Part shown: piece after piece, positions 9,160 through 30,242 of the stretch
How the letters are laid out: each line of letters opens with the position of its first letter
How positions within the stretch are numbered: position 1 is the stretch's first letter
DNA from: Bacillota bacterium
GTDB lineage: Bacteria > Bacillota > Proteinivoracia > UBA4975
Direction of reading: 5' to 3'
Assembly: GCA_012523545.1 (NCBI GenBank)
Contig: JAAYIH010000036.1
Coordinates: forward strand, 1 to 37,977
Length of the DNA stretch: 37,977 nucleotides
Program-made: the position numbers and the translations under genes
The notes under the pieces: generated by a model
Database searches by the model: none
What the model was told of the DNA's origin: nothing
Seen by the model: the letters and a program-made list of their open reading frames with translations, nothing else

Positions 9160-9187
9160 GCAGGATATACTGATTGTGAAAGCGAAT
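9160..9187 (+). promoter_or_regulatory. Candidate sigma-H promoter 1 upstream of rpoD
   Basis: GCAGGATAT (9160-9168) matches the Bacillus sigma-H -35 consensus RNAGGAWWW completely. AGCGAAT (9181-9187) matches the -10 RNNGAAT completely, with a 12-base spacer. Assignment to sigma-H is by consensus only. Confidence 0.55.
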
Positions 9188-9227
9188 TATGATAATGACC
9201 ACTGCCTGGAAAAGTTTTTTGCAAAAG

Positions 9228-27656: not shown

Positions 27657-27705
27657 AGACTCCCGGAATCCTGTATAAAAAACTGTTTTCCCATTGCGGG
27701 AGTCT
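27657..27705. repeat. 9-bp inverted repeat before the sigma gene
   Basis: AGACTCCCG (27657-27665) and CGGGAGTCT (27697-27705) are exact reverse complements with 31 bases between them. A TATAAA at 27674-27679 lies inside. It may be an operator or a hairpin in the leader of the ECF sigma gene; nothing proves either. Confidence 0.45.
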
Positions 27706-27741
27706 AATAGGTTAAAGAAGAGAAAGGGTGAGGAGCAGGCA

Positions 27742-28261
27742 GTGGATACGGTTAGTTTGGTGAGCAGCGCGCGCCGCGGCAACGACGACGCATTTTACCA
27801 GCTGATTGAACAACGCAAGCATTTACTGTACAGGACGGCATATGCCTATGTGAAAAACCGCGAAGATGCAATGGATATTGTCGGCGATACCGTGTACAAA
27901 GCATACAAATCCCTGCGGAAGCTGAAAGAGCCGGCTTTTTTCAACACCTGGCTGACCAGAATTTTGATTAACTGCTGCCTGGACCACCTGAAAAAAACAG
28001 AGACCCGCATCACTGGTTCTGGAGATTGCCGATGTCGCGGAGCCGGTTGCGGATTGTGCCGAGAAAATCGACCTGCGTCGGGCTGTCGATAACCTGGACG
28101 CCAAGTGCCGGACGGTAATAATCCTAAAGTACTACCACGATCTAACCATCAGGGAAGTGGCGGAAGTAATGCAATGCCCTCAGGGCACTATTAAGACATG
28201 GCTCCACCGGGCGCTGGACAATCTGCGTGCGGATTTAAAGGAGGATTGGCTCAATGTCTAA
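27742..28261 (+). pseudogene. ECF sigma factor gene (SigV/SigX-like), frameshifted
   Basis: The GTG at 27742, after GTGAGGAG (27728-27735), opens a sigma-70 region 2 (RGNDDAFYQLIEQRKHLLYRTAYAYVKNREDAMDIVGDTVYKAYKSL and a region ending in LKK, residues about 10-85). After an A7 run (27991-27997) the frame is lost and ends at 28092. The +1 frame then encodes a complete region 4: NLDAKCRTVIILKYYHDLTIREVAEV followed by a CPQGTIKTWLHRALDNL helix-turn-helix, stopping at 28259-28261. Removing one A from the run restores a continuous 172-residue protein. This may be a true mutation, slippage at the A7 tract or a sequencing error. The adjacent anti-sigma gene is also damaged, which favours real decay. 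Confidence 0.85.
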
Positions 28262-29465: not shown

Positions 29466-29491
29466 GCCCTGGTGGCGGGCCCTGGTGGCGG
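29466..29491. repeat. 13-bp tandem duplication
   Basis: GCCCTGGTGGCGG occurs twice in direct succession (29466-29478 and 29479-29491) in the 320-base gap between the cupin and the BrxF-like gene. Its role is unknown. A 7-bp inverted repeat CAGGCAG/CTGCCTG (29516-29522, 29536-29542) follows. Confidence 0.7.
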
Positions 29492-29575: not shown

Positions 29576-29603
29576 AAAGGAATAAGAGGAGGCAAGGGCG
29601 AAT
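29576..29603 (+). promoter_or_regulatory. Candidate sigma-H promoter of the BrxF-like gene
   Basis: AAAGGAATA (29576-29584) matches RNAGGAWWW completely and GGCGAAT (29597-29603) matches RNNGAAT completely, with a 12-base spacer. The predicted start is about 25 bases before the TTG start. Confidence 0.55.
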
Positions 29604-29636
29604 ACTGTACTAACCAAGTATGGGAGGTGTTGCGGG

Positions 29637-30095
29637 TTGCACTCTAAAACGCTGCAAGACAGTATCACTCACTCTTTTGCGGCTGACCGCAGGGTGGTCC
29701 TGCTGGTTGGCCCGCCAGGTTGCGGAAAAAGCCGGTTTTTGCGGGAACTTCCGGACGTCAGCATCGTCAATGTGGGCAAAGATTTGCCCCGGGAACTGAT
29801 TCCGATTCCCGAGGCAGAGCGGGGAGAAAAGGCTGTGGCTGTGCTTACGGAACTGATTGCCAACCTTGCCCATCCGGTTGTGGTATTGGATAACATCGGG
29901 CTGTTGCTGAACCCCCGCCTGAATTTGGACATCTGGGCCGTTCTGGACCAACTCAGCGCTGTCAAGCGGCTGATTGTAGCCTGGACGGGAAAGGTGGACG
30001 GCGATAGAATTCAGTGGGGTGAACCCGGAGTTCCAGGGCATCTGGTCATGAGTTTGGAGAACTGTCCTGCCAGCATCGTGGAGATGAAAGTCTGA
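29637..30095 (+). CDS. BrxF-like small P-loop NTPase (stand-alone)
   Basis: 152 residues. A Walker A VGPPGCGKS (residues 24-32) follows 20 N-terminal residues. SIVNVGKDLPRELI (42-55) and the Walker B VVVLDNIGLLLNP (81-93) come next, then LSAVKRLIVAWTGKVDGDRIQWGEPGVPGHLVM. This succession (INV, LDNIE-like, VAWTG, PGHP-like) and the length match BrxF, the small ATPase of type 3 BREX phage-defence systems. No brxC, pglX, pglZ or other BREX gene lies in the window, so it may have a different role. TTG 29637 follows GGGAGGTG (29622-29629). A sigma-H-like promoter precedes it and two hairpins follow. Confidence 0.7.
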   Translation: MHSKTLQDSITHSFAADRRVVLLVGPPGCGKSRFLRELPDVSIVNVGKDLPRELIPIPEAERGEKAVAVLTELIANLAHPVVVLDNIGLLLNPRLNLDIWAVLDQLSAVKRLIVAWTGKVDGDRIQWGEPGVPGHLVMSLENCPASIVEMKV

Positions 30096-30110: not shown

Positions 30111-30174
30111 GGGCGGAGCTTTTCCGCCCGTTATGTTGCATGTCCGGCCGCGGTTTTAACCGTGGTTTTGTTTT
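30111..30174 (+). terminator. Two hairpins after the BrxF-like gene
   Basis: First hairpin GGGCGGA/TCCGCCC (30111-30117 with 30123-30129) has a poor T tail. The second, CCGCGGTT/AACCGTGG (30148-30155 with 30158-30165), is followed by TTTTGTTTT (30166-30174) and is the more credible terminator. Confidence 0.6.
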
Positions 30175-30242
30175 ATGTTGCGGGGAGAAGGTAAAGGCCG
30201 GAGGAGACTTGGCCTCCATTTTCCATAATTGCTGCCCGGAAG

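Follow-up and report, generated by a model that had tools for sequence, protein, structure and literature searches.

The window analysed here, a 37,977-nucleotide stretch of a 1.73 Mb, 96% complete Bacillota genome, carries a lone brxF gene. Rather than a relic, this is a conserved unit of one gene, preceded by a sigma-H-type promoter. We draw this conclusion because the gene belongs to one clade of stand-alone relatives, has retained an intact Walker A motif, its promoter and a downstream hairpin, is under purifying selection, and occurs in genomes that encode both SigH and Spo0A. It is probably put to a use other than BREX, and we favour, with reasonable though not high confidence, an origin as the survivor of a BREX-3 operon, with a product that now serves some host partner as an ATP-dependent switch or adaptor.

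The gene and its predicted product

The 152-residue ORF (Table 1) scores 86.5 bits against the NCBIfam model NF033453 (BREX_3_BrxF), for which the curated cut-off is 50 bits, with residues 5–141 aligned to positions 3–142 of the 149 in the profile, while the next-best family reaches 17.8 bits. The PADLOC BrxF profile gives 2e-21, Pfam returns only generic AAA models, weakly and below cut-off, and the protein is 35% identical to a BREX-linked Halomonas BrxF, sharing W116, G118 and the P130–P133 region with the BREX proteins. Together with the predicted fold, these scores bear out the family membership proposed in the initial annotation. Of the motifs named there, Walker A (GPPGCGKS, residues 25–32), Walker B (VVVLDNIG, residues 81–88, with D85 intact) and VAWTG (residues 114–118) all stand, but the "PGH" motif does not: it sits at residues 133–135 and is misplaced, since the histidine found in 32/43 BREX-3 proteins aligns to residue 132, which is V in the window protein and V or R in the lone genes, so that PGH is not the BrxF GHP motif.

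Table 1. Positions of the lone brxF gene and its flanking signals in the window
Feature	Position	Strand	Details and evidence
-35 element, sigma-H-type promoter	29576..29584	+	AAAGGAATA; consensus match, arrangement shared by orthologues
-10 element, sigma-H-type promoter	29597..29605	+	GGCGAATAC; 12-nt spacer from -35
Ribosome-binding site	29622..29629	+	GGGAGGTG; sequence
Lone BrxF-family gene	29637..30095	+	TTG start, 152 aa; NF033453, PADLOC BrxF, AlphaFold model
Terminator-like hairpin 1	30111..30129	+	8 pairs; fold -14.5 kcal/mol, z -3.4
Terminator-like hairpin 2	30146..30177	+	9 pairs (30146-30167) plus T-rich tail; fold -12.8 kcal/mol, z -2.8

The best of five AlphaFold models has a pLDDT of 89 and a pTM of 0.84 (the other four: 56–71). 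In it, helices 46–54 and 59–75 follow strand 2 of the P-loop core, a long strand 4 runs into a small antiparallel sheet (strands 111–121, 124–127 and 136–139) that forms a cap-like insert at about residues 119–139, and the last strand, 146–149, is followed by no further helix and no C-terminal helical bundle. As modelled, this is the fold published for BrxF (iSTAND): a five-stranded P-loop core with an HEH insert after strand 2, a three-stranded cap after strand 4 and no lid (NAR 2026 gkag035, PMC12839542). Among solved structures, Foldseek similarity is confined to generic AAA+ and RecA-like folds with low TM. An AlphaFold model of Halomonas BrxF reached a poor pLDDT of 70 and was left out of the comparison. 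BrxB of BREX type 1 has the same inactive-STAND fold with a cap-like sheet (PMC12839542) but lacks the Walker motifs, whereas Walker A is intact in lone BrxF.

The lone protein resembles BREX-3 BrxF in length, P-loop position, LDN Walker B and AW-x-G sensor region and, by prediction, in the helix-extension-helix after strand 2, the cap-like sheet after strand 4 and the missing C-terminal lid. It differs in forming its own one-gene unit with no BrxC, methyltransferase or PglZ partner (searched genome-wide for BrxC and PglZ), and in several residues: in the joint alignment S32, R33, R36 and W127 are invariant in the lone clade, residue 127 being Y in 42/43 BREX-3 BrxFs, where residue 132 is mostly H. 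Walker A is intact in 12/12 lone genes of the two stand-alone groups in the tree described below, compared with 22/43 BREX-3 BrxFs. This conservation, together with D85, supports ATP binding. ATP hydrolysis is doubtful, because Walker B of the window protein ends in DN rather than DE and because E88, present in 7/8 relatives, is G in this copy. We found no report of a function for BrxF, even inside BREX.

Absence of a BREX system

In BREX-3 architecture brxF is directly followed by brxC (DUF6079, about 1230 aa), and BrxC adjoins brxF in our 43 control loci. These are genuine BREX-3 systems: in public plasmids the gene adjoining brxF is annotated as a DUF6079 BrxC, and the fourth gene of one locus (L037) is a BREX-3 PglZ at 706.6 bits. 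A BREX-3 system also comprises BrxA, BrxHII and the methyltransferase BrxXI; as the genome-wide test we took BrxC and PglZ, the shared core, to be enough. PglZ (PF08665, curated cut-off) is absent from the window genome and from ten further genomes, and BREX-3 BrxC is absent from the window genome, from all eight other genomes bearing an orthologue and from four that hold a second stand-alone group. In 6/6 control BREX-3 genomes the BrxC search was positive. The earlier observation that the window holds no other BREX gene thus extends to these two genes across the genome, and on this ground we reject the idea that the gene is left over from a BREX locus close by.

No recognised defence gene lies beside brxF in the window, where the gene is followed by a 285-aa ORF and then nrdR. 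A phage or plasmid origin was also rejected: there is no phage record and no close plasmid copy, only distant BREX-3 copies on plasmids, and of the matches on viral contigs one (L119) is a BREX-3 operon and three others are unrelated P-loop proteins.

Promoter and terminator

Sigma-H promoters are normally used as cells prepare to sporulate. The element AAAGGAATA-N12-GGCGAATAC upstream of lone brxF matches the published sigma-H consensus RMAGGRWWW-N11/12-RRMGAAW (PMC4754846) with 0 mismatches, and 0/2000 Markov shuffles gave a match as good; a sigma-70-type site was looked for upstream of the gene in the window and none was found. For the pattern RNAGGAWWW-N12-RNNGAATW, the window contains three sites with at most one mismatch compared with 0.40 expected by chance, and just two perfect ones, one of which is the lone brxF promoter. 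The other perfect site (GCAGGATAT-N12-AGCGAATT, 9160–9188) precedes the rpoD ORF (9267) by about 80 nt. It parallels a promoter of the B. subtilis rpoD operon that SigH is known to use (Carter et al. 1988, as cited in PMC5325327), and serves as an internal control.

The same arrangement is found in the orthologues. Searching for RNAGGAWWW-N11/13-RNNGAATWW with at most one mismatch, we find a site upstream of 8/8 lone genes that have upstream sequence, compared with about 2/103 of the other ORFs in these loci. In five of the genes (the window and four orthologues) the site stands at -60 to -62, and in the three g60 genomes at -107 to -141; shuffle P values for individual sites range from 0.003 to 0.072. 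Under the stricter PMC4754846 consensus the sites of genera g2 and g60 carry one or two mismatches, or are surpassed by another site, so the promoter claim rests on position and conservation. SigH is encoded in the window genome (TIGR02859, 370.5 bits for a cut-off of 294.8), and all genomes of the lone clade encode both SigH and Spo0A. From these sequence data we infer that lone brxF is transcribed by SigH. A possible Spo0A box, TTCGACA, is conserved upstream of the gene in three g2 genomes alone and is absent in the window, so we do not claim it.

Downstream of the gene stand two terminator-like hairpins (Table 1), and a G+C-rich hairpin follows 8/8 lone genes; four orthologues likewise have GGAGGTG ahead of their TTG start. 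The gene neighbourhood differs between the window, genus g2, G006 and genus g60, on which ground we reject an operon with the neighbours. The single-gene unit with a sigma-H-type promoter that was proposed at the outset is supported.

Two further features of the window may be recorded. A 13-mer, GCCCTGGTGGCGG, is tandemly duplicated at 29466–29491, between a cupin gene and the promoter. The ORF at 27694–28092, upstream of an apparent anti-sigma-like ORF, encodes sigma-70 region 2 only and looks like a truncated or frameshifted sigma factor.

Conservation, distribution and selection

The lone gene is present and open in nine genomes, most of the genomes compared being drafts. The closest stand-alone orthologues, 60–66% identical, are in four genomes of the same family (G001, G002, G004, G005) and one of the same order (G006); distant ones, 34–39% identical, come from another class, where each of the three genus g60 genomes has the gene. 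In an unrooted tree of 57 BrxF sequences, the full-length lone genes, eight in number, form one clade with support 98/98, apart from the 43 BREX-3 BrxFs; the ninth lone gene, that of G004, was left out because a contig end truncates it. The profile scores are likewise bimodal, 187–282 bits for the full-length lone genes and at most 108 for the BREX-3 BrxFs. Within the lone-gene groups dN/dS is about 0.06–0.25, and the suggestion of a retained, "domesticated" lineage is supported by this and by the clade.

The distribution is patchy: the gene is missing from one same-family genome, from G007 and from the five other genomes of the class, and in the class of G067 it occurs in one genus only. This pattern is as compatible with horizontal transfer as with inheritance. 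Synteny around the gene is constant across genus g2, and in one g60 genome (G401, L099 4397–8475) a germination-receptor-like gene cluster with a GerAC domain sits immediately upstream of the gene.

A second stand-alone brxF-like group (L030, L084, L086 and L088, in genomes G081, G299, G380 and G118) resembles the window's gene in exceeding the cut-off of the BrxF model (99.9–100.9 bits for the two tested), in its intact Walker A and in residing in genomes without BrxC. It differs in that its genomes lack Spo0A, its genes lack a sigma-H-type site and its neighbours are others; in genus g73 the gene lies between uppP and the gene for a putative secreted protein that comes after lysS. A sister relation to the window's clade is weakly supported (87/42).

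Sigma-H-type sites in true BREX-3 operons

Sigma-H-type sites are also common in front of brxF in genuine BREX-3 loci. Using the PMC4754846 consensus and allowing up to one mismatch within 250 nt, we find a site in 16/42 distinct Bacillota loci (L032, L034, L036, L040, L078, L079, L081, L085, L090, L093, L094, L102, L103, L104, L106 and L110), compared with about 0.8 expected from shuffles and with 8/87 other intergenic-led ORFs (Fisher P 1.5e-4), although some loci are related, so that the effective number is smaller than 42 and the counts are not phylogenetically independent. Further BREX-3 loci have a site in 3/7 cases (L125, L128, L129). By these sequence matches, BREX-3 may be timed by SigH in Bacillota. 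Because the site is common before BREX-3 brxF and brxF is first in the operon, the lone gene may have inherited its promoter from the old operon rather than newly acquired it as a developmental signal. In a literature that we could cover only incompletely, we found no published report of a stand-alone BrxF or of SigH control of BREX.

Broken copies also occur. G001 has a truncated 71-aa brxF fragment (L028 8447–8662) alongside its intact lone gene, and G056 has a decayed BREX-3 locus (L031 9542–10838) in which brxF lacks its brxC and the short ORFs after it resemble later genes of BREX-3.

Origin and role

The explanation we consider most likely has the following steps, of which the derivation from a BREX operon, the switch action and the host partner are all inferred. 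The product would be a minimal STAND/ORC-Cdc6-type P-loop protein without the C-terminal lid. Its gene, directly behind the promoter as the first gene of a BREX-3 operon, would have been the promoter-proximal survivor of that operon, and selection would since have kept it as a one-gene transcription unit behind the sigma-H-type promoter. Expression would come at the end of exponential growth or the onset of sporulation, and the protein, with ATP binding retained, would by itself serve a host partner as an ATP-dependent switch or adaptor. We can also extend this reading, though only tentatively: in some spore-forming Bacillota a phage-defence ATPase could have become a sporulation-entry factor of the SigH regulon, and more broadly BREX-3 could be SigH-timed in the phylum, with defence and developmental entry sharing one switch and lone brxF as the remainder once defence was shed.

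The main rival, which we hold to be rather unlikely, is that the product is still an immunity protein that works alone or with a non-BREX partner in phage defence or surveillance at stationary phase or sporulation. Sigma-H timing would suit defence too, given how often real BREX-3 operons of the phylum have this promoter type, and the BrxF family is otherwise described from defence loci only (PMC12839542). However, the genome has neither of the BREX partners searched for, the window shows no defence gene adjoining brxF, plasmid and phage records hold no close copy, and the surroundings are constant across genus g2, where defence genes usually vary.

It appears improbable that the lone gene came first, as a housekeeping ATPase under sigma-H control that BREX-3 later took up as its first gene. 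The tree is unrooted, so the direction from BREX to lone gene is presumptive, and both the Walker A motif, kept in all lone genes and lost in about half of the BREX-3 BrxFs, and the second, possibly sister, group in another lineage agree with such an ancestor. The lone genes are nevertheless very narrowly distributed, while BREX-3 brxF extends to Pseudomonadota (Halomonas L073, and Roseomonas and Roseicitreum plasmids).

A decaying, functionless remnant of a lost BREX-3 locus is very improbable and already disfavoured: the fragment in G001 and the broken locus in G056 show that such remains occur, but the lone gene is open in all nine genomes with low dN/dS and with Walker A, promoter and hairpin all kept, and in G001 it is the other brxF copy that is broken. 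Least credible of all is another small AAA/P-loop protein merely resembling BrxF, since the generic Foldseek and sub-threshold Pfam matches that might suggest one include no better profile and no close fold among solved structures, and the BrxF models lead every other model by over 15 orders of magnitude; the identity to Halomonas BrxF and the shared residues also speak against it.

The automatic name "BREX-3 system protein BrxF" is no proof of a BREX system. With its intact Walker A and defined promoter, lone brxF would offer a one-gene system for isolating the biochemical activity of BrxF, and the frequent sigma-H-type promoters before BREX-3 operons would tie defence to the switch from growth to stationary phase.
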